Of a DNA stretch of 36,811 nucleotides, positions 4,908-35,817 are shown piece after piece; the first letter of the stretch is position 1, and each line of letters begins with the position of its first letter. The DNA is from a virus, in the IMG/VR virus record IMGVR_UViG_3300020020_000106, positions 1-36,811 of that record. One strand, written 5' to 3'. Position numbers and translations under genes: made by a program. The notes beneath the pieces are model-generated. The model saw nothing but the letters and a program-made list of their open reading frames with translations, was not told where the DNA came from and made no database searches.

Positions 4908-5222
4908 TAGAGCCAAGAATTGGGCAATAGTGTGGAACATTATAAGCCCGTTTCACGCTGTTTAAGCCCGTTTTATTGGCTGGCATACATTTATATTAAA
5001 CCAGAATTAAAAGCCCGTACTGGGGCTGTCTGGTGGCAAGAATCGCAAGATACGGCAAATGTATGTTATTTTTTTGTGGCAAAACTGTATTTCTATTCGC
5101 TCTCGTATGGCAAGACAACTACCGGAGCTGGCTGGGTAGGTTTAACATTTGATTAACATTCCTTTAACACGTTATTAACATTGACTATTGTAACTTCATG
5201 TTTCAATATTAATAACGCACAC
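4908..5222. promoter_or_regulatory. Regulatory region A (gene-free)
   Basis: A 315-bp gene-free region. It holds three copies of AAGCCCGT (4944-4951, 4964-4971, 5011-5018), the block CTGGCATACATTTATATT (4980-4997) and CAAGAATCGCAAGAT (5037-5051). The last two recur with the same 57-bp spacing in region B (35621, 35678). A weak relative of the dispersed motif lies at 5068-5081. The region ends in the TTAACA array and promoter A. Confidence 0.75.
5142..5198 (+). promoter_or_regulatory. Promoter A with 11-bp phased TTAACA array
   Basis: TTAACA occurs at 5142, 5153, 5164 and 5175, each exactly 11 bp apart and so on one face of the helix. TAACTTCA at 5191, 27 bp after the start of the third hexamer, is the -7 candidate (TAnnTT part of TAnnTTTG). 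The start codon at 5223 lies 32 bp after it. Promoters B and C share the geometry. Probably bound by an activator or repressor recognising TTAACA. Confidence 0.7.
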
Positions 5223-5558
5223 ATGACAAAGAAAACTTACACGATCGAGGAGATCAGAACAAAGCTCCGGACAGATCAGAAATGGACGGAAAGAGCCATT
5301 CTTAAATTGTACGAACGTCAGACTGCCGACGAGCAGCAGATCGAAAGAACTAAATGGATGAACGGAGTCGGCTTCAATGCGACAGATAGCCGTCGGTTAT
5401 CCAGGTATGCAGAGTGGCTGAACAGCGGCAAGAAGCTGTCTGGCGAACACGTACAGATCGCACAGCGCATGGTCGCTAAGTACGCTGGACAGATACTTGA
5501 AATGATCGAGTACAAACAATCAGTTCTTGAAATGGCAGAGGAGGTATCAAATGCGTAA
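5223..5558 (+). CDS. Conserved small phage protein, first gene of early operon
   Basis: 111 residues from ATG 5223; the longer frame from TTG 5181 would run into promoter A, so I reject it. The pattern ERAILKLYERQTADEQ...NGVGFNATDSRRLSRYAEWL...KLSGEHVQIAQRMVAKYAGQI resembles a domain seen in many phage and plasmid proteins, sometimes fused to helicases, whose function I do not know. It is the promoter-proximal gene of a coupled operon and overlaps the next gene by 8 nt. Confidence 0.75.
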   Translation: MTKKTYTIEEIRTKLRTDQKWTERAILKLYERQTADEQQIERTKWMNGVGFNATDSRRLSRYAEWLNSGKKLSGEHVQIAQRMVAKYAGQILEMIEYKQSVLEMAEEVSNA

Positions 5559-5805
5559 GTACATCATCACACTGAACAACGGCGGAGTTATAGAAGAGAA
5601 TGCTCTCGCTATTATTGTACGTAACGACTGCCTCGGTGGCAATATCGTTAACTTCATGAAGGATAACGGTTATAGCAGCCTGTCGGAAAGAGACATCAGC
5701 GAAATCATTGAAGACGGCAAGGATGATGGCGGCAGGGTATTTTTACCTGAGCAGCCCAATATGAACACAGATCAATTTATCAGATTCTTAAAATTTAAAT
5801 ACTAA
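5551..5805 (+). CDS. Hypothetical small protein
   Basis: 84 residues. The start ATG 5551 is set by a strong Shine-Dalgarno GAGGAGG ending 6 bases upstream; a longer frame from 5527 lies inside the previous gene. The protein is acidic with a central GNIVNFMKDNGYSSLSERDI segment. Strong SD sites are unusual for Bacteroidota genes, yet several genes of this operon have them. No family recognised. Confidence 0.7.
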   Translation: MRKYIITLNNGGVIEENALAIIVRNDCLGGNIVNFMKDNGYSSLSERDISEIIEDGKDDGGRVFLPEQPNMNTDQFIRFLKFKY

Positions 5806-5809
5806 ACAA

Positions 5810-6049
5810 ATGACACACATTCCAGGTTTAGACAAATGGTTAACGACTCCTCCCGAAGACAGGGAGGATTTAAGCTACGATTTTTATGCAGAAGAAGTTG
5901 AGTCCGCAATGGGCGGAGAATGGCAGAGCTGGTACGAGCCTATTGTTCGCAAGTGCTACGACAACTGCATCGGAGTTTACAGGTGCGCAGACAGACTTCG
6001 TGAAGAAGCCGTTGAACGCCAAATTGAAAAGGAGGAGTACAATGACTAA
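5810..6049 (+). CDS. Hypothetical small acidic protein
   Basis: 79 residues, starting 4 bases after the previous stop. It has an aromatic N-terminus (IPGLDKWLTTPPEDREDLSY) and an acidic, Arg-rich helical C-terminus. It overlaps the next gene by 8 nt. No family recognised; context suggests an early host-takeover or accessory protein. Confidence 0.65.
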   Translation: MTHIPGLDKWLTTPPEDREDLSYDFYAEEVESAMGGEWQSWYEPIVRKCYDNCIGVYRCADRLREEAVERQIEKEEYND

Positions 6050-6290
6050 TACAGCCAGCGAGTTACTCGCACCGCAGCCAGCGCCAAAGTACTTCTTCTG
6101 CCTCCAGATCAAATCGAAATGGGGCGCAGATTGGTTTATGACAAGTTCATTCGCCTACGAAACATTTGAACAGTACAGGGAGGCAGCCAACAGCTCCGGT
6201 TCAGTTCCTGACGATGATGTAGTAGCTTACACTCGCATACCAGAGAGCGCAAAACGTGCCGAAGAAATTTTAAACGACTTACATTTTTAA
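6042..6290 (+). CDS. Hypothetical small protein
   Basis: 82 residues from ATG 6042, preceded by GGAGGA. The central part KYFFCLQIKSKWGADWFMTS followed by a helical C-terminus suggests a compact alpha/beta fold. Its start overlaps the previous stop, so it is translationally coupled. A longer frame from 5886 is excluded because it lies inside the previous gene. Confidence 0.65.
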   Translation: MTNTASELLAPQPAPKYFFCLQIKSKWGADWFMTSSFAYETFEQYREAANSSGSVPDDDVVAYTRIPESAKRAEEILNDLHF

Positions 6291-6291
6291 T

Positions 6292-6360
6292 ATGGTACAC
6301 ATAATCAGTTTTCTAATATTCGCCAGCTTCTGGTATTTTGCCACAAAGAAAAACAAATAA
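6292..6360 (+). CDS. Short single-span membrane peptide
   Basis: This 22-codon frame encodes HIISFLIFASFWYFAT followed by KKNK: one hydrophobic span and a positive end, typical of small phage membrane peptides. It begins one base after the previous stop and ends one base before the next ATG, so it fills the gap exactly. A degenerate dispersed-motif copy (6341-6353) lies in its 3' end. Confidence 0.45.
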   Translation: MVHIISFLIFASFWYFATKKNK

Positions 6361-6361
6361 G

Positions 6362-6568
6362 ATGTTATATTACTCAAAGATCAAGACCAACATTCAGCTT
6401 CTTCCTGATTTATCCACAAAAGAAAAAGAGCAGGCTTACGAGTTCATGAACTACGTATTCCAGCCAGCGTTCTACAACAGGGTACACAGTGTAAGCGCAG
6501 AGGCGGCAGAGAAAATAGTTACAAACGGATTAGGCATAATTACAGGTTACTCAACGGTGATGCACTAA
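6362..6568 (+). CDS. Hypothetical small protein
   Basis: 68 residues from ATG 6362, one base after the preceding stop; a longer frame from 6338 would overlap the membrane peptide. A motif copy at 6410-6427 encodes LSTKEKEQ in this gene. The C-terminus is AAEKIVTNGLGIITGYSTV. No family recognised. Confidence 0.6.
   Translation: MLYYSKIKTNIQLLPDLSTKEKEQAYEFMNYVFQPAFYNRVHSVSAEAAEKIVTNGLGIITGYSTVMH
6410..6427 (-). repeat. Dispersed motif copy 4
   Basis: TTATCCACAAAAGAAAAA on the + strand, with an exact DnaA-box TTATCCACA; encodes LSTKEK. Confidence 0.85.
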
Positions 6569-6584
6569 TTTTAATTTGATGGTA

Positions 6585-6638
6585 GTCGGAGGCGAGAAAC
6601 AAGGCGTAAACGGTAGGTTCGATTCCTGCCCTCCGACC
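6585..6638 (+). tRNA. tRNA-like element lacking an anticodon arm
   Basis: TCGGAGG (6586-6592) pairs perfectly with CCTCCGA (6630-6636) as a 7-bp acceptor-like stem, extendable by G6585-C6637. A canonical T-arm precedes the 3' strand: stem GTAGG (6613-6617)/CCTGC (6625-6629) with one G-U pair and the 7-nt loop TTCGATT (6618-6624, consensus TTCRANY). Only 20 nt separate acceptor and T-arm instead of about 41, with no evident D or anticodon arm. No CCA is encoded (CTA follows). It is either a decayed tRNA or a tRNA mimic; it cannot be a normal decoding tRNA. Confidence 0.55.
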
Positions 6639-6658
6639 TAAAACTTAAACACAAACAA

Positions 6659-6886
6659 ATGACAAACAAACTAAAATCAGATCTCGCGCTCATGGTAATC
6701 GAGGCGTACGATCATCTCGAAGCTCCGGAGGAGTATTTCAGCGACAGGTCAGATGCCGATTGCGACCAAGACGGCTACATTCCAAACGAGGAAATGAGGC
6801 GCCTCCACAATGTTCAGAGAGCGCGTGTGCTTCTGGAACGAGTAAAAACAATCTTATTAACCACAAAAGAAAAAAGTAATGTTTGA
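6659..6886 (+). CDS. Hypothetical acidic small protein
   Basis: 75 residues, acidic (EAPEEYFSDRSDADCDQDGY) with an Arg-rich helical C-terminus. Its last codons (LTTKEKSNV) are encoded by a dispersed-motif copy at 6857-6876. It overlaps the next gene by 8 nt. No family recognised. Confidence 0.65.
   Translation: MTNKLKSDLALMVIEAYDHLEAPEEYFSDRSDADCDQDGYIPNEEMRRLHNVQRARVLLERVKTILLTTKEKSNV
6857..6876 (-). repeat. Dispersed motif copy 5
   Basis: TTAACCACAAAAGAAAAAAG on the + strand; end of gene 6659-6886. Confidence 0.8.
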
Positions 6887-7055
6887 ATCAGTAATAGATA
6901 TGTTGATGCTTAGTTATTACGGCATCTACGACGACAACCGCGACAAGATCGAGGAAGGGGAAGACGATTTCTCCAAAAGCAAGGAGCGCAAGAAAATGAA
7001 CGAGCTGGTACAGGCTATCGTTATTCTTTACCAAAACAAGAACGGGAGACCATAA
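6879..7055 (+). CDS. Hypothetical small protein
   Basis: 58 residues from ATG 6879, overlapping the previous gene's end, with the start only a few bases after a motif copy. The sequence is SVIDMLMLSYYGIYDDN, a charged linker, then NELVQAIVILYQNKNG. Helical; no recognised family. Confidence 0.55.
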   Translation: MFESVIDMLMLSYYGIYDDNRDKIEEGEDDFSKSKERKKMNELVQAIVILYQNKNGRP

Positions 7056-7067
7056 CACTTACAGATA

Positions 7068-7226
7068 ATGGAAAAGAAAAAATCAGCATGGGACGAGTTA
7101 AGGGAAGGACTTTGGGAATCACGTATTCTCGGAGTTATGGCTCAATATTCAATGACTCGTGAAGAAGCACTTGAGCAAATAGCATTTGAAGATAACGAAT
7201 ACAGACAACAGGAGGAAACTAAATAA
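7068..7226 (+). CDS. Hypothetical small protein
   Basis: 52 residues: SAWDELREGLWESRILGVMA then QYSMTREEALEQIAFEDNEY. It ends in TAATG, sharing one base with the next start, and its 3' end supplies that gene's GGAGG Shine-Dalgarno. Helical and acidic; no family recognised. Confidence 0.55.
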   Translation: MEKKKSAWDELREGLWESRILGVMAQYSMTREEALEQIAFEDNEYRQQEETK

Positions 7227-7552
7227 TGGACACAATTAAAGTAATAAAGATAGACGTTGCCGAGAGGCGCGTCTATACTTGCGAAATCGAAAACTCGCTG
7301 GAAGGTATGTACGAGGCAATCGGCTGCCAGACTGTCGAAAACGTATTTCTGGCAACTCGGCATCACTTGATCATAGACGAAGATGCTGGACTATTCCGCA
7401 ATGATGATGCCAAGTTCAGGATTGACTCCGGCTTCACGAAGTTCAACGTGATAGGCGATGCGCTGATAGTAGGCATAACTCCTGACGGAATTGATTGGAC
7501 TGACTGCACACTAGACATCGAGGAGGTGCGAAGGAGGATAGATTTTTTATAA
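7226..7552 (+). CDS. DUF3846-like protein
   Basis: 108 residues. The N-terminal IKVIKIDVAERRVYTCEIEN, then a central LIIDEDAGL and GDALIVG near the end, follow the pattern of the DUF3846 family of small phage/plasmid proteins of unknown function. A GGAGG lies about 11 bases upstream of ATG. The assignment rests on remembered family pattern only. Confidence 0.65.
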   Translation: MDTIKVIKIDVAERRVYTCEIENSLEGMYEAIGCQTVENVFLATRHHLIIDEDAGLFRNDDAKFRIDSGFTKFNVIGDALIVGITPDGIDWTDCTLDIEEVRRRIDFL

Positions 7553-7570
7553 CCTAAAAATACAAAAGAC

Positions 7571-8011
7571 ATGATTTCCACAAAAGAAAAAATGGAAGGG
7601 CTGGCTCACTTAGAGCTGGCTTTTCCCACTATGACACTTTCACAGCTGCGCTCAAGAATCGAGGCGGCAGTCAATGACGGCAACTTCGTAATCGAGTACA
7701 ACATGAGAAACGGATTCGCCAGATGGGAAGAATTCGAGGACGATCAGTTCATCGCCAGCCCTGGAGTTGCGGTTGCTCTGGCATTCGTCGATGAGTGCAC
7801 GCCTGAGCTTACTGATCGAGGCGCGCGTGCAAGGAGACTTGGATGGGGCTGGTATTACCTGATGCACTTCGAGATGGCGATTAACTCGCTGTTCGCAGGA
7901 GATATTCGCGCCTACAATCACACCGAGTACTTCCCGCGCATTGACGACTCGATACGGCTGCCAAAGATAACTGCGGAGAATATTGATTTACTTTACAAAG
8001 CGATGAAATGA
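7571..8011 (+). CDS. Hypothetical protein
   Basis: 146 residues from ATG 7571, or 139 from ATG 7592. A dispersed-motif copy (7574-7593) lies exactly between the two possible starts, so the N-terminal ISTKEKM may be coding or untranslated. The remainder contains FARWEEFEDDQFIASPGVAV and a Trp-rich RRLGWGWYYL. It overlaps the next gene by 4 nt (ATGA). No family recognised. Confidence 0.6.
   Translation: MISTKEKMEGLAHLELAFPTMTLSQLRSRIEAAVNDGNFVIEYNMRNGFARWEEFEDDQFIASPGVAVALAFVDECTPELTDRGARARRLGWGWYYLMHFEMAINSLFAGDIRAYNHTEYFPRIDDSIRLPKITAENIDLLYKAMK
7574..7593 (-). repeat. Dispersed motif copy 6
   Basis: ATTTCCACAAAAGAAAAAAT on the + strand; between the two possible starts of gene 7571-8011. 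Identical to copy 3. Confidence 0.85.
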
Positions 8012-8751: not shown

Positions 8752-8820
8752 TTAGGTTGCGTCTGCTTCAGTTAGTGTGGCTGGTTTAAGTTCATCCTTT
8801 TTGGATTAGGCGTAATTTGT

Positions 8821-9776: not shown

Positions 9777-10253
9777 ATGGAAGATATGACTATCAATCAC
9801 TGGATGGTAACCGCCAGAACCAGTGGCACGAAAGCGGAGGATCTATGGGAGGACGCTAAGACGTACTTCATGTGGTGCGAGAGCAACCCGATCTACAAGC
9901 AGGAGATGATTAAGCAGACTGGCGCGATAGTCAGTACCTGTTTCCCGAGACCATTTAACCTACCGGCACTGTGCCTGCACTGCGGGGTGGCGGTGAGTTA
10001 CATCAACGACTTAGCCAGAAACAAGGCTGCTGGAGACTACCATTTGGTAGCGCAAAAGATACTGCAGGTGATATACTCGCAGAACCTGGAGTACGCCATG
10101 GTAGGTGTCTTCAACGCCAATGTAACCATGAAGAAACTCGGGCTGGGAGATGACGACAGGAGTAATGCTGCGGCGACTATCCAGATCAGCGTGGTCAAAC
10201 CTGAGGGCACTCCAGCCCTGGAAGACAATGAATTTGAAAACGAGAATTCCTAA
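9777..10253 (+). CDS. terS: Terminase small subunit
   Basis: 158 residues. DLWEDAKTYFMWCESNPIYK, then RPFNLPALCLHCGVAVSYIN (a helix-turn-helix) and VGVFNANVTMKKLGL match the Bacteroidota-phage small terminase (DNA-packaging) family. It should bind the packaging site and feed DNA to the large subunit. Unusually, 2.7 kb of repeat-rich DNA separates it from the large subunit at 13003. Confidence 0.85.
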   Translation: MEDMTINHWMVTARTSGTKAEDLWEDAKTYFMWCESNPIYKQEMIKQTGAIVSTCFPRPFNLPALCLHCGVAVSYINDLARNKAAGDYHLVAQKILQVIYSQNLEYAMVGVFNANVTMKKLGLGDDDRSNAAATIQISVVKPEGTPALEDNEFENENS

Positions 10254-10473: not shown

Positions 10474-10680
10474 GGAAAGTCCACAGTTGCCAGCCAGCCA
10501 ATACATTACAGATAATTGTAATATGACTCCGCTGGGTGAGGTAGGTAGTGTCAGGTAGTAGGTATAACATACAATACAACAATTTACGTTAGAAAAACCA
10601 AGCCGGAGCGACTTTCACAAAGATTTAACATTTGGCGCTGGGTGATCACATATTAAAGAAAATTGTAATACGACTCGAGA

Positions 10681-10700
10681 GAAGGTAGCCCGAAGGTACG
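10681..10700 (+). repeat. 20-nt repeat copy 1
   Basis: GAAGGTAGCCCGAAGGTACG; it can form GTAgCC-CGAA-GGTAC with one bulged base. It lies in a longer unit with CATATTAAAG upstream and an AAAGTTAAA-like tail. Confidence 0.75.
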
Positions 10701-10781
10701 GAAAAAATTTCAAAGGGAAAAGTTAAAATAAATTTGGAGCTGGCGGCAACATATTAAAGTTTTTTTATATGCGACAGGCGA

Positions 10782-10801
10782 GAAGGTAGCCCGAAGGTAC
10801 G
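10782..10801 (+). repeat. 20-nt repeat copy 2
   Basis: Identical to copy 1, 101 bp downstream, with the same CATATTAAAG about 30 bp upstream. Confidence 0.75.
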
Positions 10802-10851
10802 ACGAAAATTTGGATTAAAAAAGTTAAAGTTTAGTTAACGTTAAAATCGGA

Positions 10852-10870
10852 GAGGTAGCCCGAAGGTACG
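10852..10870 (+). repeat. 20-nt repeat copy 3
   Basis: GAGGTAGCCCGAAGGTACG, 70 bp after copy 2; the unit is shorter. A diverged relative (GAGGTAGGTAG) is seen near 10539. Confidence 0.7.
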
Positions 10871-11020
10871 AAAATTTTTTGGAATATCCAAGTTAAGGAA
10901 ATGTTAAAACCAGCCAGCCATGACCTGGGGCTGCAAACCTGGGGTGTCATGCCAGGTTTAGTTAAAATATGTTAAGATCAGGGTTTAACTAAAACATTAA
11001 CATTTGGCTGGGCTTGGCTG

Positions 11021-11045
11021 GGCTGGGCTGACAGCCAGCCTTTTT
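11021..11045 (+). terminator. Rho-independent terminator candidate
   Basis: GGCTGG (11021-11026) pairs with CCAGCC (11035-11040), followed by TTTTT (11041-11045). The stem is built from the same GCTGG/CCAGC repeat that fills this region, so it may be fortuitous. Confidence 0.5.
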
Positions 11046-11198
11046 GATGAATAGCTTTATTTGGCGTTTTAAGCCGTATTACAGCCAGCTTTACACGTTT
11101 GCATACATTATGCCAGCCAGCCTGCCGATCGTTGAAATTTGGGGAGATTTGCTATTTTTGTTATATGTAGCTGGCTGAGGATCAATTGTTTATGTGTG

Positions 11199-11224
11199 CA
11201 GCCAGCCAGCCAGCCAGCCAGCCA
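11199..11224. repeat. (CAGC)n microsatellite
   Basis: About six and a half uninterrupted CAGC units; part of the GCCAGC-rich island. Confidence 0.85.
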
Positions 11225-11325
11225 AAAAAGCTGGAATGTTAACGATCAGAAAAAACCTGGGCTTTAACATCATTTTAAGGAATTAATGCTTATATACGCG
11301 CAGGCATACGATTACATTATATAAA

Positions 11326-11350
11326 CCAGCCAGCCAGCCAGCCAGCCAGC
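11326..11350. repeat. (CCAG)n microsatellite
   Basis: Six CCAG/CAGC units following ATAAA; second large tract of the island. It is preceded by GGCATACG (11303), similar to the block in regions A and B. Confidence 0.85.
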
Positions 11351-11418
11351 GCCAAACGATCAAACGTTAAAGATATGTGAAAGGTAAGATCAGCTGTATT
11401 TTGTATTGATCGCTGGCA

Positions 11419-11426
11419 TATCTTTG
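11419..11426 (+). promoter_or_regulatory. -7 box TATCTTTG for membrane peptide
   Basis: TATCTTTG fits TAnnTTTG and lies 26 bp before ATG 11445. The nearest TTTG (11400-11403) is only 15 bp upstream, so the -33 box is poor. Confidence 0.4.
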
Positions 11427-11444
11427 CTGCTCAATATTAAAATT

Positions 11445-11552
11445 ATGAAACAAACAAACAAAAACAGCCAGCTCCAAGAAAATATAATTGTATTATTTAC
11501 TTTCGGCTTTATTGTATTTATGGTAATAGCTGCATTATATCAAATTAATTAA
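11445..11552 (+). CDS. Single-span membrane peptide
   Basis: 35 residues: a polar start with NKNSQLQEN then IIVLFTFGFIVFMVIAALY, one clear membrane span. ATG 11445 follows a TATCTTTG promoter box. The gene contains AAACAAAC and GCCAGC repeat DNA. It may be a small holin-like or superinfection-type peptide; the sequence alone cannot say. Confidence 0.5.
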   Translation: MKQTNKNSQLQENIIVLFTFGFIVFMVIAALYQIN

Positions 11553-11582
11553 TCAATCAATCAATCAAACAAACAAACAATT
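11553..11582. repeat. AATC/AAAC tetranucleotide tract
   Basis: ATCAATCAATCAATCAAACA and following AAAC units separate the two membrane-peptide genes. The second gene starts at the end of the tract. Confidence 0.7.
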
Positions 11583-11726
11583 ATGACTCAGATTATCATT
11601 CCCGCTCACATTGCTTATTTCATTGTATTTTTACAGGCTTATGCTGTATGTTTATTAATAGCTGGTTTAATGGGATATGCAGCCAGCCAGCGCAAAAAAG
11701 CCAGCCAAACAAAATCTACACATTAA
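11583..11726 (+). CDS. Second small membrane protein
   Basis: 47 residues: a hydrophobic stretch from IIIPAHIAYFIVFL to AYAVCLLIAGLMGYAA (one or two spans), then a basic tail SQRKKASQTKSTH partly written by GCCAGC repeats. Its TAA overlaps the first TTAACA of promoter C. It forms a pair with the upstream peptide; function unknown. Confidence 0.5.
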   Translation: MTQIIIPAHIAYFIVFLQAYAVCLLIAGLMGYAASQRKKASQTKSTH

Positions 11727-11768
11727 CATTTCATTAACAACGTGGTGTTGTATCATCACATATCTTTG
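11723..11768 (+). promoter_or_regulatory. Promoter C with paired TTAACA
   Basis: TTAACA at 11723 and 11734 (11 bp apart) and a full -7 box TATCTTTG at 11761, 27 bp after the second hexamer start and 32 bp before ATG 11793. This is the geometry of promoters A and B. No TTTG stands at the -33 position, so TTAACA probably replaces it. Confidence 0.72.
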
Positions 11769-11792
11769 TAATTCAAATTTAAATCATCAATT

Positions 11793-12626
11793 ATGTCAAA
11801 CGGTAAAAAAGGTAGCTCCGCCAAAAGTGAGCAAATAGTTTTAGATCAGCCAGTTATTGATCAGCCAGTTATTGATCAGCCAGCCAGCGACGAACAAGCA
11901 AACGGCAAACCAGCCAGCGACGAAGCAGCAAACCAGCCAGCGCCTCCTCCGGTTTTTATGTTGCCGATTATTGCAGCCCGCGAAGCTGAAGACAAGCTTA
12001 ACAGCGATAAAGCCAGCCAGCTATTTGAAGCATTTATTAATGCTAAAAAAGAATATGTTGCCGCAAACGTTGAAGACAATTTTGCCCAGACAGAGCGCGT
12101 ATTAACAGCTCAGGCAAACGTGAAATTAGCGGATGAAGCTATTACCAGCCACGCAAAAACGATTGAGCTGTTAGGGCTGGAAAGGGCTGAGAATGATCAT
12201 AAACTGATCAACAAATATGTTTTGTGTGAAGCTTTTGGTATTGATATAGCCGCTTTAGATATTTTGATCGCTAAAAGCGCTGATGTAAAAGATACATTAA
12301 AGCCAGCTTTCACCGCTGTTTTTGGCAAACCAGTTTACTTCGCAAAACAGGGCGAGACGTCTAAAGCGCTTAACGCCAATAAAAAGCCAGCCAGCGACGC
12401 AAACGGCGACGCAAACGGCGAAGCTGCGGACGACAAAAAGGCAGAAATTAGAGCTGACTTAACGGCAGGTATGACTTACGCTGAATTGCTTCAAAAATAC
12501 CCAACGAAGCCAAAAGACGCGCCGATCAATTACAATAAATTGAATGGTACAGTGCGCACCGTTATAAGCGAGGAAGGCTGGTCCAAACAAGCTGACGGAA
12601 GTTATACGCTAAAAGCAGCTGAATAG
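11793..12626 (+). CDS. Acidic repeat-containing protein of unknown function
   Basis: 277 residues. The N-terminus is a low-complexity run of VIDQP and QPASDE units; QPAS is simply the translation of CAGC tandem repeats, so the DNA repeat has spread through coding sequence. Residues about 60-190 are Ala-rich and helical. A second low-complexity part (KPASDANGDANGEAADDKK) leads to a C-terminal domain AEIRADLTAGMTYAELLQKY ending VRTVISEEGWSKQADGSY, which looks like a small folded DNA- or protein-binding module. It has its own phage-type promoter and is followed by the parS-like palindrome. I recognise no ParB, Rep or repressor motif. Confidence 0.75.
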   Translation: MSNGKKGSSAKSEQIVLDQPVIDQPVIDQPASDEQANGKPASDEAANQPAPPPVFMLPIIAAREAEDKLNSDKASQLFEAFINAKKEYVAANVEDNFAQTERVLTAQANVKLADEAITSHAKTIELLGLERAENDHKLINKYVLCEAFGIDIAALDILIAKSADVKDTLKPAFTAVFGKPVYFAKQGETSKALNANKKPASDANGDANGEAADDKKAEIRADLTAGMTYAELLQKYPTKPKDAPINYNKLNGTVRTVISEEGWSKQADGSYTLKAAE

Positions 12627-13002: not shown

Positions 13003-14112
13003 ATGAAAACATCTATCATCTTCGAAGAAACACTCGCGCTGATGCGAACGCACAGGCGTATTCAACATCAGGGCGGGCAGTCGGCAGGGAAGACAGTTAA
13101 TATTCTTGCGGCGATTGCCAAGGTGCTGGCGGAAGAGCCGAAGGTGGCGACTGTTACCTCGATGAGCTTTCCGCATCTGAAGGCTGGCGCGATGCGAGAC
13201 TTTGACCGGTACGTCTTGCCGGAGTTTGCACCTGCTGTGAAGCAATACCGGAAAAGCGACTCGACCATTCTCTGGAACAGCGGCGGATTACTGGAGTTCA
13301 GGACTTACGAGACGGAATTTGACGCGAGAGGACCTAGGCGGAATATCCTGTTTGTCAACGAGGCTAATACCTTTGACTACATGACGTGGTGGCAATTAGA
13401 TTCGCGAAGTGAATTAAGCATATTGGACTACAACCCTACCATCAGATTCTGGGCGCACGAAAAAGTGAAGGATGAGCCAGGAACTGCGTTTAGAAGAAGC
13501 TGGCACGTTCACAACCCTTTTCTAACAGAGCAGCGACACTCGGAAATCGAGGGGATTAAAGACAAGGAACTGTGGAAAGTGTACGCTCGCGGATTGACCG
13601 GCAATGTCAAGGGAGTAATCTACCCTGATTGGGAGATGACTGATTTTATCGAGTGGTCAGATCCTTTTTTCGCTATTGACTTTGGATTTACCAACGATCC
13701 TACGGCAGTGGTGAAAATCGAAAAGGTTAAAGAAAAGATTTATGTGGAAGAGATAGCTTATGTTACTGGTGCTATGACTGCACAGCGTATCCAGTCTTGT
13801 TTAGAGGCTAATGGATACACAGACAACAGTATTATATACTGTGAACATGAGCCTAATATGATTAAGCAGATGAAGCTGTTAGGCTTAAGAGCCGTTGCTG
13901 CGAAGAAAGGACAAGGTTCACTCAACGCAGGAATAGAAAAGCTAAAAGAATATCAAGTTTATTATAGGGGTAGGAATATCAAGACCGAGCGCGACAAGTA
14001 CATCTGGGAGATTGACGATCTTGGTAATCCAACTAACAAACCGGTAGATGCTAACAACCACGCCTTGGATGCCATAAGATACGGCGTTTACTCGCACTTC
14101 TACCGAGAATGA
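13003..14112 (+). CDS. terL: Terminase large subunit
   Basis: 369 residues, the packaging motor. ATPase: Walker A GGQSAGKT (24-31) and Walker B ILFVNE (115-120). RNase H-like nuclease: AIDFGFTND (D226), IIYCEHEP (E281) and NNHALDAIRYG (D356). At 369 residues it is on the short side for the family but has all core motifs. It is the first gene after the late promoter, with a dispersed-motif copy 7 bp upstream, and is followed by a folded element and a terminator. Confidence 0.95.
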   Translation: MKTSIIFEETLALMRTHRRIQHQGGQSAGKTVNILAAIAKVLAEEPKVATVTSMSFPHLKAGAMRDFDRYVLPEFAPAVKQYRKSDSTILWNSGGLLEFRTYETEFDARGPRRNILFVNEANTFDYMTWWQLDSRSELSILDYNPTIRFWAHEKVKDEPGTAFRRSWHVHNPFLTEQRHSEIEGIKDKELWKVYARGLTGNVKGVIYPDWEMTDFIEWSDPFFAIDFGFTNDPTAVVKIEKVKEKIYVEEIAYVTGAMTAQRIQSCLEANGYTDNSIIYCEHEPNMIKQMKLLGLRAVAAKKGQGSLNAGIEKLKEYQVYYRGRNIKTERDKYIWEIDDLGNPTNKPVDANNHALDAIRYGVYSHFYRE

Positions 14113-14252: not shown

Positions 14253-15959
14253 ATGAAGAAAATAACCTGTGCATTTTTCTTTTTGTGGATAACTGCCTTT
14301 TGTTATTCGCAACAAGTTCCGTCTGTTCCCGAGACTTGGGGAACTTGGGGACTCGGTTATATCAAGAACAACAATTCTCTTAATATCTACACTGGATACA
14401 ATATCCAGGGATTTCATATGTACGTTTCTTGGGATATGTTAGAGCCTACTAAAGGAAACTTTAAATGGGATGAGTTAGACAAACAATTTCAATTATTGGC
14501 AGACGCTAAATTGTGGATTGGAGTTCAAATACTCGTAGGTCCTAACTGCCCTTCTTGGATTTACAACAATGTGCCTCGAGTAATGACTACCGGAGGACAA
14601 GACGATGGACCTTATCCTTATTACCTTGACAGAGATTACAAAGACCGGTATTTTTTTCTTTTGCGGAAAATGGGCGAGCATATAGAAAATTTGCCTGCTG
14701 ATATTAAAAAGCGTTTTATGTACTGGCAGATTTCAGAAGGTTCTACTGGAGATGGCGAACCTTACAAAGGCGATGTTGTAGAACAGCAATACGCTATCGA
14801 CTGGTACACATGGGATGCTTACAAGAAAGCCGCATGGGATAGTGCGAATGTTTACAGGGCAGACAACTGGTATCGTTTACAGTTTAACACCGGAAACTTT
14901 GGAGAAAATCTACAGTATGCAAACGCTCGGTTTCCTCGAGACCAACAGAAGAATGGAACTCTATCTCACTGGTACGGTTTTGATGGTGAGATACTTTATT
15001 ACACTAGACAATACAAAGACTTTTTACGTTTACCATTTAGTTTAAGAACACGAGGTGAAGTGCAAGATAATTTCAATAGAGACTGGTGGATGGAAGCTCC
15101 TGTAAAGAATGCTTTCGCGCTGGTTTGTTCAGCTCTTTCTGGCGGTCTTGATATGATGAACATAGCTGGTGGTTACATCAACTCTACATTAGACACAAGA
15201 CCGACAGCCTTTTTTAATAAGTATGCAGGTTTGAGATTTGCCGCTCAGTCAAACAGAGGATTTATCGCCTTAAGAGATGTACCCGACTTTTCTGATACGA
15301 TTCGTTTTCCACAAGAAGAATATGGAAGAGTTATACCCGCTTCGCAGGAAAACGCCTTCCTAAATCGTATCGAAAAGATAGAGAACAACCCTAAAGACTC
15401 TTCCATGTACAAGTACTGGCAGAAGATGAAGGCGATTGTTCAGTATCTTAACCCTGCAAGAGTACAGAAGATAACCGAAGAATTTGCACCTGCTGGAGCG
15501 ATGTACAACGAAAGCGGAGACGACTTGCACAATGATTTTGGAGTGAACATGGTTAATAACTACTTCATGTTCATCACTCAGTTGAAACCGGATGAAACTT
15601 CTATTGGTGGTTGGAGAGTAGGACCCGATACGAGTATGTACGGAAGATACTGCCGATTGTTCAAGATTGAGCGTAATGTAGGCGAGATGTTATTTCAATT
15701 CAATGAGCGTCTTGTTGAGCCAGGTGAGAACGTGAAGGCTACTATAGTTTACTTTGATGTTGCAGGCGGAAAATGGTCTATTAACGGAAGCAACAAAAGA
15801 GTAGTTGTAACCAACACTGGAACTAACCAATGGGTAAAGAAAGAAGTTGGACTAAACAATTTTGTTCCTAATACTGAACGTGAAGGTGCAGACTTCAGTT
15901 TACAATACGAAGATGGAGCTAATACTCCTTTTGCACTAATCGAGGTTGAAGTAAATTAA
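14253..15959 (+). CDS. Secreted glycoside-hydrolase-like protein
   Basis: 568 residues with an N-terminal signal peptide (about 1-19: two Lys, then CAFFFLWITAFC, cut near YSQ). Residues 45-100 read like a clan GH-A (beta/alpha)8 barrel: HMYVSWDMLEPTKGNFKWDE, then a hydrophobic strand VQILVGP. YWQISEGSTGD (158-168, E162) resembles the acid/base strand of GH42/GH5-type enzymes; the second catalytic Glu is not certain. The last 140 residues look like a beta-sandwich. A secreted sugar-cleaving enzyme is unusual between terL and portal. It may act on capsule or released polysaccharide. The signal peptide core is written by a motif copy (14273-14292) and a GCGG variant lies at 14650, so the gene has long been in this genome. 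Pathway and substrate are unknown. Confidence 0.7.
   Translation: MKKITCAFFFLWITAFCYSQQVPSVPETWGTWGLGYIKNNNSLNIYTGYNIQGFHMYVSWDMLEPTKGNFKWDELDKQFQLLADAKLWIGVQILVGPNCPSWIYNNVPRVMTTGGQDDGPYPYYLDRDYKDRYFFLLRKMGEHIENLPADIKKRFMYWQISEGSTGDGEPYKGDVVEQQYAIDWYTWDAYKKAAWDSANVYRADNWYRLQFNTGNFGENLQYANARFPRDQQKNGTLSHWYGFDGEILYYTRQYKDFLRLPFSLRTRGEVQDNFNRDWWMEAPVKNAFALVCSALSGGLDMMNIAGGYINSTLDTRPTAFFNKYAGLRFAAQSNRGFIALRDVPDFSDTIRFPQEEYGRVIPASQENAFLNRIEKIENNPKDSSMYKYWQKMKAIVQYLNPARVQKITEEFAPAGAMYNESGDDLHNDFGVNMVNNYFMFITQLKPDETSIGGWRVGPDTSMYGRYCRLFKIERNVGEMLFQFNERLVEPGENVKATIVYFDVAGGKWSINGSNKRVVVTNTGTNQWVKKEVGLNNFVPNTEREGADFSLQYEDGANTPFALIEVEVN
14273..14292 (+). repeat. Dispersed motif copy 11
   Basis: ATTTTTCTTTTTGTGGATAA; writes the signal-peptide core FFFLW of the GH gene. 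Confidence 0.8.
14650..14670 (+). repeat. Dispersed motif copy 12 (GCGG form)
   Basis: TTTTTTTCTTTTGCGGAAAA; inside the GH gene, encoding FFLLRK. Confidence 0.75.
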
Positions 15960-16630: not shown

Positions 16631-18041
16631 CTGGAATAATTGGACAAGCGGTGGTTTGCCTGTTACCAGACAACCTGGCTTGTTTGGCAGTATAGCCACT
16701 CAGGTTATGAAAGGTACTAACGTAGACTTCATACCTTTGGATAACAACTCCAATGTTATGGATGTAAAAGACAGTCCGTTATGGAAAGGTCTTGAATCTA
16801 AAGAAATGCAGTTCTGGGCTTATTGTTATTGTTCTCCTCTCGCTTCTGTTATTGACCGTCTTGCTGATGCAGATATTAACGGCACACTTATGTTCTTACG
16901 CAAATCTGATGATAGCGATTCTAATTCTGCAATCGTAAGAAAGGTAAAGGCACTTTTAATGCGACCAAATGCTTTGCAAGACCAATTTGAATTTCGTGCA
17001 GAGCAAGTGACTTACAAAAAGACTTACGGTTATGCCCTTATCTACGGAATGGGTATGACTGATGATAACCCATTAACCTGTTCTTCTTTGTGGAATCTGA
17101 ACCCTTTTTATTGCGAGCCTATAAGAGACGACAGTTTTAATCCTTATAATCGCAAAAAGTCAAATCCTATTAAAGAATGGAAAGTACGTATATTAGGTAA
17201 AGACTATACGATACCTGCCGATAAGATACTGATATTGAAAGACTCGTATCTACCTCGCCACAGAGATGAACTCGGGCTTCCTATATCCAAGATCAGTGGA
17301 CTGGACTGGGCGATAAGCAATATCTGCGCCGCAATGGAGGCAGATAATGTGCTGTTGCGTAAGAAAGGTCCACTTGGTTTTATTTCACAAGATACAGCCA
17401 AAGATCCTATTGCCGGTTATGTTCCTCTAAGTCCAAAAGATAAAGCCGAGATTCAAAGTGATTTACAGGCTTACGGTTTAACTTGGGCGCAATGGCAGTA
17501 CGTAGTTACTCGTCATGGTTTGAAGTGGAATCCAATGTCTTTTAATGTAAAAGATTTGGACACGAAAGGAACTATTAGAGAAGGCATTGATATGATAGCA
17601 GATAGGTACGGCTATCCTGCGGAGTTAATGTCTGGCAAGAATGCAACCTATGAAAATCGTACAAGTGCCGAAAGGTATCTTTATAATTCGACAGTCATTC
17701 CCAGCAATATGCGGGATATGTATAGTATTAGCTATTGGTTTGGAATGACTGAAGATTATATTTACTATGATTACACAGATTACCCTGCAATAAGAGATAC
17801 CAAAGTAACTCAAGGACAAGGTATAAAATCTTTATCAGAGGGTTTATTAATTCAGTTCCAAGCCAATGTTATTACTTTAAATCAAGTAAGACAAATATTA
17901 GAACAGAATACAGTGCCTGGAGATGATTTGTATTATGGCTCTGAAGAGTACAAAGAAAAGTATGGAGCTAATACTCCAGAACCAACCGTTGCTAAGCCTA
18001 TGGAAGAAAACACACCGCCAAAAACAGATGGAGAAAATTAG
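16614..18041 (+). CDS. Portal protein, HK97-type
   Basis: 475 residues, the dodecameric DNA gateway of the capsid. The layout fits HK97-like portals: N-terminal AYCYCSPLASVIDRLADA, a core with YGYALIYGMG, YLPRHRDELGLPISKI and wing/stem segments, then the IADRYGYPAELMSGKNATYENRTSAER region typical of portal clip/stem. The acidic Pro-rich C-terminus overlaps the HNH gene by 14 nt. Protease and capsid genes follow in standard order. Confidence 0.9.
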   Translation: MPREFDWNNWTSGGLPVTRQPGLFGSIATQVMKGTNVDFIPLDNNSNVMDVKDSPLWKGLESKEMQFWAYCYCSPLASVIDRLADADINGTLMFLRKSDDSDSNSAIVRKVKALLMRPNALQDQFEFRAEQVTYKKTYGYALIYGMGMTDDNPLTCSSLWNLNPFYCEPIRDDSFNPYNRKKSNPIKEWKVRILGKDYTIPADKILILKDSYLPRHRDELGLPISKISGLDWAISNICAAMEADNVLLRKKGPLGFISQDTAKDPIAGYVPLSPKDKAEIQSDLQAYGLTWAQWQYVVTRHGLKWNPMSFNVKDLDTKGTIREGIDMIADRYGYPAELMSGKNATYENRTSAERYLYNSTVIPSNMRDMYSISYWFGMTEDYIYYDYTDYPAIRDTKVTQGQGIKSLSEGLLIQFQANVITLNQVRQILEQNTVPGDDLYYGSEEYKEKYGANTPEPTVAKPMEENTPPKTDGEN

Positions 18042-18519
18042 TTATTTAAATGGAAGAGTTATTTGTGAAGTAAAAGATAATGGATGCCATGAGGTTATTA
18101 GTCATAAGCAAGGCGCAAACGGCTATCCTCAAATTAGATATAATGGTATTGCTTCTACTATTCATAGAGTAGTTTATATGTTTGAAATCTTAGGAGTTTT
18201 GAAACTTGATGGCACTATGGATATTTGCCATACTTGTGATAACAGAAAATGTTGCAACACAGAGCATTTGTTTAGCGGAACTCGACAAGATAACGTAAGC
18301 GATATGGTTGAAAAAGGTAGAAATTCAACAGGCAAAAAACATGGAGATACTTGTAGAGGAGAAATACAAGGTAATTCAAAATTGACTGAAATCGAAGTAA
18401 AATTGATAAGATTAAAGTATGAGCTTGGTAAAAGGAAATGTGATTTAGCTGAAGAGTATAATGTTAGTCATAAATTAATAAGGAATATTATAAATTATAA
18501 AACTTGGACTCATGTTTGA
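18028..18519 (+). CDS. HNH endonuclease with C-terminal HTH
   Basis: 163 residues from ATG 18028, a free-standing homing-type endonuclease. HNH core: NGYPQIRYNG (31-40), HRVVYMF (46-52), DICHTCDNRKCCNTEHLF (65-82: C67, C70, C75, H80) and GTRQDNVSDM (84-93). Residues 119-160 are a helix-turn-helix (IEVKLIRLKYELG...EEYNVSHKLIRNII). It overlaps the portal stop and the protease start (ATG 18512), so it sits exactly in the portal-protease junction. Such genes usually cut related phages at the neighbouring site. Confidence 0.9.
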   Translation: MEKISYLNGRVICEVKDNGCHEVISHKQGANGYPQIRYNGIASTIHRVVYMFEILGVLKLDGTMDICHTCDNRKCCNTEHLFSGTRQDNVSDMVEKGRNSTGKKHGDTCRGEIQGNSKLTEIEVKLIRLKYELGKRKCDLAEEYNVSHKLIRNIINYKTWTHV

Positions 18520-31417: not shown

Positions 31418-31436
31418 ACTAATTAAATAAATTTAT

Positions 31437-34400
31437 ATGGCAGAAACTAATATAAGCGGAGTAAAAACTAACGAACTCCCTGCGGTTGTTTCAGTTACAG
31501 ACCAGCACTTGTTTATGGTTGCCGATAAGACAACTGGGTTTGCATACAAGGCGACTGAAGAACAGGTTAAGGAAGCTATTGCCGTTAATACAGATTTCAA
31601 GACAGCAGTACCGACAACAGTTCCGGTTACTCCTTCCGATGGAACTGTATATCTTCCTATGGTATCTGGAACTTACACCAATTTTAAAGACCAAGCAAAT
31701 GCTTCTTTGGTTGTTGCAGATACAGATGCGTTTCCATACTTTCTTTATAACGGAACGTACTGGACTAAGAGAACCAGTGCAGCCGATTTGACTCTTTACG
31801 CGACAGATGCAGAGTTGGCTGCCGTAGGTACAAGCGTAACAAAGGTTGAGAACCAGCAAAAGAAATTTAGGTTTTTTACTGATGATTTGCCTAACAATTT
31901 CTTTAAGGAGTTGCATTTATATGGCAAGACTTCTCTATACACAAACTATCGTGTAACTCAAATAAAGAATAATGTAGGTACGACTAATCCTTATAACATT
32001 ACAATAACTGCATTCAATGGAACTGCTGATATTAATGTGTGTGCTTGGATTTCTAATTCAGGACCTAACTACAATATTGTAATGAAGGAATACAACAACT
32101 CTGGTGTTATGGGAGTTGCTGTTGTAGATTGGAGTTCAATAGCAGAAGCGACTTATTTGACTCCTTATCCTATAAATAATAAATACGCATTTGCGTCTTA
32201 TTCTCCTTTTGCAGCATTGCAGAAATTTGATTTAGATATAGCTGATACTCCTGGAACTAAGTTTACAATTAGTGAGTTTAGTTTAAGCAAAACCAATTAC
32301 AATTTAGTACCAGTTGTAAATGCAAGAACTACCGAGCCATTAAGTATTCCTGACGATGGTATTATTATCTGTAAAGGAATTTATAACTTTGCAGCAACAA
32401 ACTTTGGCATTATGTTTTACGATGCAGACGGAACTCCTCATCCGCCTACTACATATTCACCTGCTGGACTGTATTTCACTTTCGATGTAAGTACAACTGC
32501 TTATAAGTATTATAGGCTTTCTGGACAGAAAGATGAAAAACCGACTATATTTCACAAGATAACAAAGCCGAAATCTAAGCCTGATTTAATTCAGTCGATT
32601 ATTTTAGGTAATGAAGACACATACAAACAGTTAATCGAAACTGGAACTTATACAATTCCAGCTCCTTTATTCGAGTATTACAAGAACTTGTATAATGCAA
32701 CAACTGGAGCGCTTTCGAGTTCAGGTGTTGCTTCCACAAGAAAAATATATGTTCATCTGGCTAATAAAATATCTTATCAGTCATTCAAAGCGTCTACTGT
32801 TGGTATGAGTTTTTACGATAAGAACATGACTCTAATAAGTTCTGTTATTGATAACGTATCTCCAACTGGTACGGTGAAAGAAGCATTAATTCCAGATAAT
32901 GCTTATTGGGCTTTTCATCCTTACTCAACTTTGGATGATGCAATAGCAAAAGGGTTTCCAGCATTTGATAAGATAACATTAAAGAAGAACAAGTTTCTGT
33001 CTTCATCTGGAACTCCAGAAGGTGCTACGCTGGAATATATGTACAAAGTTAGCGAGAATGTTCTTGGAACATTAGCTAATGTTACTATGCTTGTAGACAC
33101 CAACGTTAATCTCAACTCTGGAACAATGATACTCGATAACGTGGAGTTGGTTTTCGTTAAAGGTATTAAGCTAACTAACGGCACATTGTCTGGTAGCTAT
33201 AATATATCAACAAGTGATTACCAGCAGGTATTTGATATTCCAGGCGGTAGTTCAGTTGGAGTTTCATTGGCTGGTAAATGTAAGAACAAGTATTTATCTG
33301 TACAGTGGTGGGGTGCAAAGGGAACGAGTGCGTATATTAAAGATGCTGTATATACAGCTCTATACGGACAAGGAGTTGATGATACTCCGCCTATCAACTG
33401 GGCTTTATTACAGGCAAAGAACTTAGGTGGCGCATCTGTATTTGTACCTCCTACAAATGGCGCTTATTGGGTTAGATGCCAAACTAAATATGCTAATCAG
33501 CACGACCCTTCAGACCACGGTGACTTTAATGCAATAGACATTTACGATAATACAGAGTTGTTTGGAGACAGGAATTTTTCTAAGCTGGTTGTTGTAGACT
33601 ATCAGATAGCAGCAGATTATAATGCTTTAAATCCTATTTACAGAACAAGAGATTTAATGGGCTTTGCACCTTGGACTCAAGCTGAAATGGATGCGATAGG
33701 TAAAGGCAGCGTATCTAAAATATTTTTTAAAGTAGGAAGGAGCAATGTTACAGTGCATGACTTGTATATGGATTGCAGAGTTTCTATGCACCCCTCCAGC
33801 GATACAGAAATTAACAGCATAGTTTGTTGTATCTACTCTGTTAAATTTAGTGATGAAGCAACTGGTACAACTTACGGAAGGGGTAAAGATTGTATCTTTA
33901 GAGATAACACTTGTTACGATGTTGCAGTAGCCTGCCTTGTTAAGAACCATAACGGAACAGGGGCTGGTTACAAGCAAGTGAGCAGAACTCTGGTTATGGG
34001 AAACATAGTCGTTAAGACTTCCAACAAAGCATTTGAGTTCAGCAGAATTGATAACGCTGTATGTAGTCATAACAATGTACGTCTTGCTCAATGCTGCTAT
34101 CAGGCAATCTTCGATACTACAAATGTAGTTTTCTCTAATAATATTGGTTCGGAGTCAAGAGATGGAATAGACTTAGCACAAGGCGCACTTGATTGTATAG
34201 TTGCAAACAATATAATTACAGAGTGCGATGCTCCATTTCTAATAAGAGCTGATGCCGGAATTATCTCAACTGAATTTATAACGGAGAACCTGTACATTAC
34301 AGGAAACATATTCGAGCAAAAGGCAGTTTCGGTTTACACTTACTTGTTTGCGTTTCAAGGCGCATCTGCTCATACTGATACAGTATCTGGATTTATGCAC

Positions 34401-34877
34401 GTTAGAAATGTAGTAATCGAGAACAACAACTTTAGAGGGAATCTTGCTGTAATAGGAATGAACACAAATACTCAACAAGGTGGAAAACTTGCATGGCTTG
34501 TTGAGAATGTAACATTTAGAAACAATAACTGGGATTGCAATATTAACATACAGCAAGGAATTACTCAAAGTGGAGTTAGACCGCAAAGCGTTGTTAAAGA
34601 TATAATATTCGAGGATGTAATTAAAGCTGGTCGCAGTCTATCTGTACTTGGCAATACAGGAAGAATAACTTTCGCAAATAAAAAAATTGTTGGTACGGTT
34701 AGTGTAGACGGAACTGGTAAGGGCGCTATTGTTTTTACTCAATCTGAAATCAGCGGAGTTCTTGCAGTTCCAGCTGGAAACATATTATTGTTCTTCGATA
34801 CATTAGTAATTCCTGGCTCGTCAATAGACGTAACCGGAGCTACAATCCAAGTAGACAGAAGATACTCGTTAGCATGA
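31437..34877 (+). CDS. Tailspike / tail fibre with beta-helix
   Basis: 1146 residues. Residues 1-130 hold a short virion-binding region and a beta-rich domain (YLPMVSGTYTNFKDQANASL). From about 620, LSVQWWGAKGTSAYIKDAVY and GVDDTPPINWALLQAKNLGG followed by ASVFVPPTNGAYWV is the classic start of a pectate-lyase-like right-handed beta-helix. Repeating strands (NVTVHDLYMDC, NVVIENNNF, NVTFRNNNWDC) continue to the end. Such spikes bind and often cut capsule or LPS sugars. Active residues cannot be assigned. Confidence 0.88.
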   Translation: MAETNISGVKTNELPAVVSVTDQHLFMVADKTTGFAYKATEEQVKEAIAVNTDFKTAVPTTVPVTPSDGTVYLPMVSGTYTNFKDQANASLVVADTDAFPYFLYNGTYWTKRTSAADLTLYATDAELAAVGTSVTKVENQQKKFRFFTDDLPNNFFKELHLYGKTSLYTNYRVTQIKNNVGTTNPYNITITAFNGTADINVCAWISNSGPNYNIVMKEYNNSGVMGVAVVDWSSIAEATYLTPYPINNKYAFASYSPFAALQKFDLDIADTPGTKFTISEFSLSKTNYNLVPVVNARTTEPLSIPDDGIIICKGIYNFAATNFGIMFYDADGTPHPPTTYSPAGLYFTFDVSTTAYKYYRLSGQKDEKPTIFHKITKPKSKPDLIQSIILGNEDTYKQLIETGTYTIPAPLFEYYKNLYNATTGALSSSGVASTRKIYVHLANKISYQSFKASTVGMSFYDKNMTLISSVIDNVSPTGTVKEALIPDNAYWAFHPYSTLDDAIAKGFPAFDKITLKKNKFLSSSGTPEGATLEYMYKVSENVLGTLANVTMLVDTNVNLNSGTMILDNVELVFVKGIKLTNGTLSGSYNISTSDYQQVFDIPGGSSVGVSLAGKCKNKYLSVQWWGAKGTSAYIKDAVYTALYGQGVDDTPPINWALLQAKNLGGASVFVPPTNGAYWVRCQTKYANQHDPSDHGDFNAIDIYDNTELFGDRNFSKLVVVDYQIAADYNALNPIYRTRDLMGFAPWTQAEMDAIGKGSVSKIFFKVGRSNVTVHDLYMDCRVSMHPSSDTEINSIVCCIYSVKFSDEATGTTYGRGKDCIFRDNTCYDVAVACLVKNHNGTGAGYKQVSRTLVMGNIVVKTSNKAFEFSRIDNAVCSHNNVRLAQCCYQAIFDTTNVVFSNNIGSESRDGIDLAQGALDCIVANNIITECDAPFLIRADAGIISTEFITENLYITGNIFEQKAVSVYTYLFAFQGASAHTDTVSGFMHVRNVVIENNNFRGNLAVIGMNTNTQQGGKLAWLVENVTFRNNNWDCNINIQQGITQSGVRPQSVVKDIIFEDVIKAGRSLSVLGNTGRITFANKKIVGTVSVDGTGKGAIVFTQSEISGVLAVPAGNILLFFDTLVIPGSSIDVTGATIQVDRRYSLA

Positions 34878-35146
34878 AAATAATAATGATATTTTTTCTT
34901 TTGTGGATAATCTGTATTTTTTCCTGTAAGTCTCCGAATAAGATACAGTGGTCGCAGAAAGTTTTGACGGTTGAGCAAGACTCGATAAGTACCACTGTCA
35001 TACAAAGAGATAATACAGTTGATAGTGTGCGCTATAAGAAAAGTACTCATTACGAACAGAAGTCGCCACGAACTGTACAAGGTAAGTGGTATCTGGTAGC
35101 AGCAATATTAATTGGAGTTGCAGCTATCTTCTTATTAAGAAACTGA
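34874..35146 (+). CDS. Candidate unimolecular spanin (u-spanin)
   Basis: 90 residues: lipoprotein signal MKIIMIFFLLWIICIFSC with lipobox IFSC (Cys18), a polar periplasmic-type middle of about 50 residues, and a C-terminal membrane span WYLVAAILIGVAAIFLLRN (71-89). An outer-membrane lipid anchor plus an inner-membrane C-terminal span is the u-spanin topology of T1 gp11, here shorter. It would fuse the two membranes at lysis. It overlaps the tailspike by 4 nt. The signal's hydrophobic core is written by a motif copy (34891-34910). Confidence 0.65.
   Translation: MKIIMIFFLLWIICIFSCKSPNKIQWSQKVLTVEQDSISTTVIQRDNTVDSVRYKKSTHYEQKSPRTVQGKWYLVAAILIGVAAIFLLRN
34891..34910 (+). repeat. Dispersed motif copy 19
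   Basis: ATTTTTTCTTTTGTGGATAA; writes the signal core FFLLWI of the u-spanin candidate. Confidence 0.85.
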
Positions 35147-35172
35147 TTTTCTAACAATTAAATATAAATTTT

Positions 35173-35514
35173 ATGAAGTACTATCGGGCTACTCAGGATA
35201 TAGTTGCACCAGACGGAAAGGTAATTCCAGCTGGCTCAATTACATCTGAAATAACTTACAATGGCAAAGACGCTGCCATTCAAGCTATGTTTGAGGATGA
35301 TGTTGAAACAACTGTAGAAATTGCAGAAGAGTTACCGCCGCCTGCATCTCCACCTTCAGGCGATGCCGCCTCATTCGACCCTCCTGCAAAAGAGTGGGAT
35401 TTGCCTTATGCAGACCATACTGGATATGATGATGATGTTGTTGAACCAGGCGAAGATGATGATGAGCCTGTTCACTCTCATCCTCACAATCCGACTGATA
35501 CTCATGGTCATTAA
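35173..35514 (+). CDS. Acidic His-rich protein closing the late operon
   Basis: 113 residues. The N-terminus is a small beta-like domain (YYRATQDIVAPDGKVIPAGS). The C-terminus is Pro/Asp-rich and ends in VHSHPHNPTDTHGH, a possible metal-binding tail. Last gene before the late terminator. Phage short-tail-tip or decoration proteins can look like this, but I assign no function. Confidence 0.65.
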   Translation: MKYYRATQDIVAPDGKVIPAGSITSEITYNGKDAAIQAMFEDDVETTVEIAEELPPPASPPSGDAASFDPPAKEWDLPYADHTGYDDDVVEPGEDDDEPVHSHPHNPTDTHGH

Positions 35515-35553
35515 GTTGCGTGTTTTTTAAAATGGGTTTATATAGAGTTACTA

Positions 35554-35582
35554 CGGGGAGTGTTTTTACACACCCCTTTTTT
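35554..35582 (+). terminator. Late-operon terminator
   Basis: GGGG (35555-35558) pairs with CCCC (35573-35576) and GTGT (35560-35563) with ACAC (35568-35571) across one A-A mismatch, followed by TTTTTT (35577-35582). Confidence 0.85.
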
Positions 35583-35817
35583 ATGAGATAGATCCTTGCC
35601 CAGTAATCGCTAAAATTGCGCTGGCATACGTTTATATTGCCATAAAATTTGATGCCAATACTCGTCAAGAAAAGCGCCAAGAATCGCAAGATTTATGCCA
35701 TATATAATACAGCGTAAAAAGCCAAAAAAGCGAATATTTTAACAAACCTTTAACATTTCATTAACACTTTATTAATAAAATCTTATTTATATTGCAGTTT
35801 GTTCAAAATCAATAAAA
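35583..35817. promoter_or_regulatory. Regulatory region B
   Basis: Counterpart of region A: CTGGCATACGTTTATATT (35621-35638) and CAAGAATCGCAAGAT (35678-35692), separated by the same 57 bp, followed by the TTAACA array and promoter B. The rest is AT-rich with no gene. Confidence 0.75.
35739..35795 (+). promoter_or_regulatory. Promoter B with 11-bp phased TTAACA array
   Basis: TTAACA at 35739, 35750, 35761 and TTAATA at 35772, each 11 bp apart. TATATTGC at 35788 lies 27 bp after the third hexamer start and 30 bp before ATG 35818. Confidence 0.7.

Follow-up and report, generated by a model that had tools for sequence, protein, structure and literature searches.

Phased TTAACA arrays before three gene sets of a Bacteroidota-type phage: candidate operators for the host regulator PhoB

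The source record was found to be a linear virus sequence of 36.8 kb, and the whole stretch of 36,811 nucleotides that was analysed (IMG/VR record IMGVR_UViG_3300020020_000106) is called the window. Apart from the genes of Table 1, the record encodes portal, protease, capsid and tail genes. In terminase and primase the record is 32-38% identical to its closest annotated phages, most of which infect Bacteroidota, and the host is placed no finer than this phylum because a terminase scan of genome contigs found no prophage or host. Three TTAACA arrays, named sites A, B and C, were located on the + strand. Site A lies directly past the primase gene, and the operon behind it appears to run via small genes to the small terminase subunit. 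The operon behind site B probably continues beyond the contig end, by circular permutation, to the helicase and primase at 532-4907. The label "early" for these two operons is taken from gene content (helicase, primase) only. The 277-aa gene behind site C gave no family match, and no phosphate-acquisition family (e.g. pstS) was recognised among the window proteins scanned.

Table 1. Coordinates of the arrays, the boxes and the genes around them in the window
Feature	Positions	Strand	Description
DEAD/ResIII helicase	532-2244		
VapE-type primase-helicase	2730-4907		
Site A, array	5142..5180	+	four TTAACA half-sites; starts 5142, 5153, 5164, 5175; 11-bp steps
Site A, -7-like box	5191..5198	+	TAACTTCA; imperfect TAnnTTTG; 16 bp past start of fourth half-site
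First gene behind A	5223..5558	+	111 aa, phrog_21015
Small terminase subunit	9777-10253		
Site C, array	11723..11739	+	two TTAACA half-sites; starts 11723, 11734; 11 bp apart
Site C, -7 box	11761..11768	+	TATCTTTG; perfect TAnnTTTG; 27 bp past start of second half-site
Gene behind C	11793..12626	+	277 aa; between small and large terminase genes
Large terminase subunit	13003-14112		
Site B, array	35739..35777	+	TTAACA at 35739, 35750, 35761 and TTAATA at 35772; 11-bp steps
Site B, -7-like box	35788..35795	+	TATATTGC; imperfect TAnnTTTG; 16 bp past start of fourth half-site
First gene behind B	35818..36132	+	104 aa, uncharacterised

Other features were also observed in the window. Between the large terminase and the portal lies a secreted-looking protein of 568 aa (14253-15959), whose match to Glyco_hydro_42 was borderline at 21.5 bits (cut-off 21). 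The end of the portal gene is overlapped, in a different reading frame, by an HNH endonuclease gene (HNH_3, 17923-18519). The region 10500-12450 contains dense AGCCAGCC repeats in the non-coding DNA and inside the 11793 gene, together with three AGGTAGCCCGAAGGTACG copies at 10683, 10784 and 10853; the matching place in related phages contains other words, CTAACGTTAG in L015 and AGCTTAAAGC in L013. Counting both strands, the 13-nt word TTTYTTTTGTGGA was found 21 times against 0.27 expected, often inside coding genes (556, 2105, 2395, 6413, 7577, 9735, 12982, 16060, 20685, 27585, 29700, 34895 and nine near-matches), and similar copies were present in the related phage L017.

The hexamers of sites A and B start 49, 38, 27 and 16 bp upstream of the first base of the box, followed by the ATG 32 bp (A, 5223) and 30 bp (B, 35818) after the box. 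The hexamers of site C start 38 and 27 bp upstream of the box, with no half-site at -16, followed by the ATG after 32 bp (11793), and one register is common to the three sites. The hexamer, box and ATG coordinates of the original prediction were all correct when the sequence was read again, including its claim that at A and B the box begins 27 bp after the start of the third hexamer in the row of four; at C it begins 27 bp after the start of the second and last hexamer. The TTTG element was sought at -36 to -33 and was absent from all three sites (ACAC, ACAC and ACAA at A, B and C, respectively), which bears out the proposal that TTAACA takes the place of the -33 TTTG. Imperfect -7 boxes are expected of activator-dependent promoters, and the imperfect boxes of A and B therefore fit promoters of this type. 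The features of sigma-54 and ECF promoters (-24/-12 elements, CGT-type -10 box) were not seen in TAACTTCA, TATATTGC or TATCTTTG; promoters of these two types were set aside on comparison of the boxes with the motifs in PMC9723704.

The exact pattern TTAAYA-N5-TTAAYA was found to have seven matches in the record, all at A, B and C and all on the + strand, and the same pattern read backward had none. Six TTAACA-N5-TTAACA pairs were observed. Dinucleotide shuffling of the window gave a mean of 0.015 (maximum 1 in 400), and the value was 0.001 when only the AT-rich non-coding parts were shuffled. The TTAACA pairs of the window that lie less than 45 bp apart were found at spacings of 11, 22 or 33 bp and at no other. 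The original prediction would have lost its ground if 11-bp pairs were common in AT-rich DNA; they were looked for, and the arrays proved to be very rare in Bacteroidota genomes, with two phage-type arrays in 395 Bacteroidia genomes and ten triple arrays in 101 Sphingobacteriaceae-family genomes against one for the reversed pattern. The arrays at A, B and C are thus confirmed as real and far beyond chance.

The large terminase was found in nine viral contigs at 69-83% identity. The window and ten related loci contained 28 same-strand TTAACA pairs at 11 bp, a count that includes close-relative contigs and stands for fewer independent events, followed by five pairs each at 10 and 22 bp and 0-2 at the other spacings. 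The search of relatives for TTAACA-N5-TTAACA, as proposed earlier, thus gave 11 bp as the dominant spacing and arrays that recur at matching places. In L014 and L015 the gene homologous to that behind C was likewise preceded by the site-C array, at the identical 27-bp spacing, and in L012 the array was present about one helical turn farther off. The more distant L045 (primase 47% identical) was found to contain a perfect four-hexamer array past the primase gene, as at site A, with the fourth hexamer starting 16 bp before the box, also as at site A. The L014 phage has a further site, L167, which precedes the helicase-primase block, the place that B would occupy. The occurrence of the arrays is patchy among Bacteroidota phages, and most of the isolates examined are without them: no 11-bp pairs were found in the isolate phages phi46:1, P12024S, mumin6-4, FPSV-S1, PM93P1, Nekkels_1 (fetched part) and two Riemerella phages, and the pairs of phi17:1 (two) and BU1-1 (one) were not accompanied by a TAnnTTTG box. 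When two array-bearing contigs were compared with isolate phages by megablast, no match was obtained, and a promoter-region search gave short, weak matches only.

The same element was found before phosphate genes of cellular genomes. A scan of 84,980 prokaryotic genomes for three hexamers at 11-bp steps, followed by TAnnTTTG 20-21 bp on, gave 34 loci, nearly all in Bacteroidota sensu lato (Ignavibacteria included). The genes directly downstream included pstS (TIGR02136), PHO4/PiT, a Na/Pi cotransporter with PhoU domains and Porin_O_P (OprO/P-porin), as well as phoB, which matched NF053854 at E ~1e-76, slightly below the cut-off of a model that is too broad for clean picking of phoB in whole genomes. 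When Bacteroidia pstS genes were chosen by family and not by motif, an array scoring at least 14/18 was present upstream of 9 of 29, against 4 of 104 other genes, whereas spacings of 7-10 and 12-14 bp gave 0-2 of 29, so that the enrichment is found at spacing 11 only; about two thirds of the pstS genes tested were without a strong array. In the 395 Bacteroidia genomes the phage-like motif TTAACATT-N3-TTAACATT-N3-TTAAYA was matched twice, each time upstream of a DUF47 (PhoU_div) gene and, after it, a PiT-like transporter that was identified by eye.

A known Pho box is a pair of 11-nt direct repeats that keep a conserved core; OmpR/PhoB-family response regulators bind it head-to-tail and contact sigma at the promoter (PMC2648988, PMC4415409). 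Sites A, B and C were likewise found to contain 11-nt direct repeats with a 6-7 nt core and a fixed replacement of the -33 element, and the same sequence stands before phosphate genes of the host phylum. The sites are thus very probably read by a regulator of the OmpR/PhoB family, and they are probably operators for the host PhoB in the form of predicted tandem Pho boxes. Because Bacteroidota place the identical once-per-turn TTAACA arrangement before phosphate-uptake genes, the virus may be borrowing the phosphate-starvation switch of its host. From the sequence we infer PhoB binding, activation rather than repression, the phosphate-starvation response and the timing alike.

A different OmpR/PhoB-family response regulator of the host, answering to a redox, envelope or other signal, would leave the mechanism unchanged and is a less probable alternative to PhoB. 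Repeats of 11 bp are used elsewhere in the family, such as the three to five repeats of ArcA (PMC3798270), and Bacteroidia genomes contain many OmpR-family regulators. A second cellular class of TTAACA arrays, with spacers like AAAGC (the TTAACAAAGCA class), was also observed; it always lies 21 bp before TAnnTTTG, upstream of surface or uncharacterised proteins (L128, L133, L137, L140-L143, L145, L150, L151, L157). This class may be the regulon of another OmpR-family regulator, and since it precedes non-phosphate genes, more than one regulator may read the TTAACA core. Against a reader other than PhoB, the spacers of the window score with the phosphate class (A +19.4, B +5.4 and C +5.1 bits, the modest scores of B and C being due to short or mixed spacers), as do those of nearly all array-bearing phage contigs, and both matches of the phage-type motif in the 395 genomes are phosphate operons.

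The reader of the arrays could also be encoded by the phage, as a DNA-binding protein or a sigma-like factor, and this is improbable. Many small phage genes are without a known family and related phages carry many arrays per genome, but no Trans_reg_C (OmpR-type DNA-binding) domain was found in the window, a record that may be incomplete, nor any other DNA-binding regulator among the window proteins scanned, and the identical element stands before host phosphate genes. The absence of Trans_reg_C from the window makes the regulator most likely the host's. The sigma-like factor of the original prediction found no support, since the -7 box is still sigma-A-like and 11-bp direct repeats are a signature of the OmpR/PhoB family; its proposals of a protein that reads one face of the DNA and of a regulon joining the three sites were supported. 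The original prediction did not name the host PhoB, the likely regulator.

Iterons, too, are typically tandem repeats with one copy per turn of the helix, and related phages contain arrays on both strands in non-coding stretches, so a replication origin or a nucleoid-protein site was weighed as a reading of the arrays as structural DNA. This is very improbable for three separate sites which are each oriented with transcription and keep a fixed register to the -7 box, followed by the start codon 30-32 bp on. The phase of the box was kept in many contigs. Of ten TAnnTTTG boxes in the relatives, eight lay 16, 27 or 37 bp past the last hexamer, and in contigs picked only for a fourfold array 31 of 41 lay at 16, 26/27 or 36/37 bp, with no such peaks on the upstream side of the arrays. 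The binomial values for this phase are very small, for positions that were picked post hoc and related contigs that are non-independent. The full pattern of array and box was present at 42 viral loci and at 34 in a 257-Gb cellular collection, as raw counts and not densities.

The raw counts of fourfold arrays in viral contigs (106 at 11 bp, 32 reversed and 117 for a 12-bp control) were given no weight alone, since the 12-bp control is just as frequent, and only the filtered and box-phased counts were used. The 12-bp control sites lay inside long open frames as coding repeats in 90 of 131 cases, and 4 had a box. After removal of coding and identical-unit arrays, 87 (11 bp), 18 (reversed) and 29 (12 bp) were left, with a box at 11, 1 and 1, respectively. 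Chance or low-complexity AT-rich DNA, with which the raw equality of 117 and 106 would agree, has a negligible probability against these filtered counts and is excluded within the window by the shuffles and the spacing scan.

If the arrays are operators for the host PhoB, each TTAACA with its 5-bp spacer would form one 11-bp half-site, and tandem dimers would be bound on one face of the DNA, with two dimer sites in A and B and one in C. The last half-site would lie 16 bp (A, B) or 27 bp (C) before a sigma-A -7 box that has no -33 element, and the bound regulator would recruit the host polymerase, with the array standing in for that element. Through this the host regulator would control the 11793 gene and the operons behind A and B, of which that behind B probably reaches the helicase and primase, and the probable signal would be the phosphate state of the host. 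It is a possibility, though a somewhat doubtful one, that a broad set of Bacteroidota phages uses host PhoB as the main activator of early or replication operons, with the speed or outcome of infection in nature dependent on the phosphate status of the host. On this broader reading, TTAACA-N5 would mark a portable "PhoB early promoter" that could be spotted in many uncultured phages.

A description of a Bacteroidota Pho box was not found in the open papers searched, a coverage that leaves out most subscription journals, and the arrays supply a candidate sequence for it, whose core TTAACA also resembles the B. subtilis PhoP site. The sites offer a testable example of an abundant phylum's phages that would couple their replication genes directly to a nutrient-stress regulator of the host. 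If this is true, infection in soils and waters would be tuned by the level of phosphate, and the array would be a computational handle on the promoters and hosts of uncultured phages.

Among known systems, the Bacteroidota sigma-A promoter (-33 TTTG, -7 TAnnTTTG; PMC9723704) is resembled in the -7 box, perfect in C and imperfect in A and B, whereas the -33 element is missing from the three sites and the array is in its place. The PHO box (E. coli CTGTCAT-N4; B. subtilis PhoP) has in common with them the 11-bp direct-repeat half-sites with a 6-7 nt core, the tandem boxes and the replacement of the -35/-33 element upstream of the -10/-7 box (PMC2648988, PMC4415409); sites A, B and C differ in lying in a phage before replication or uncharacterised genes, in the core TTAACA and in the Bacteroidota -7 box, and their link to PhoB is predicted. 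The boxes of ArcA, a member of the same family, contain two to five direct repeats with 11-bp centre-to-centre spacing but have no fixed place relative to the promoter, unlike the present arrays (PMC3798270). Phage genes under a host phosphate regulator are known from cyanophages (P-SSM2 pstS; S-PM2d), in which hypothetical and DNA-replication genes were bound by PhoB in vitro and predicted Pho boxes often failed to bind, being unreliable without binding tests (PMC10976474). The present phage differs from these in the host phylum, in near-perfect four-repeat arrays instead of degenerate boxes and in a window without a recognised auxiliary phosphate gene. Use of host PhoB, replication genes included, is thus known in cyanophages, and its predicted use by a Bacteroidota phage, for a replication operon as well as two uncharacterised gene sets, seems to be new. 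The points that set it apart are the phylum, the near-perfect arrays, the candidate sequence of the Bacteroidota box, and the position before replication or early-type genes with no phosphate gene recognised.
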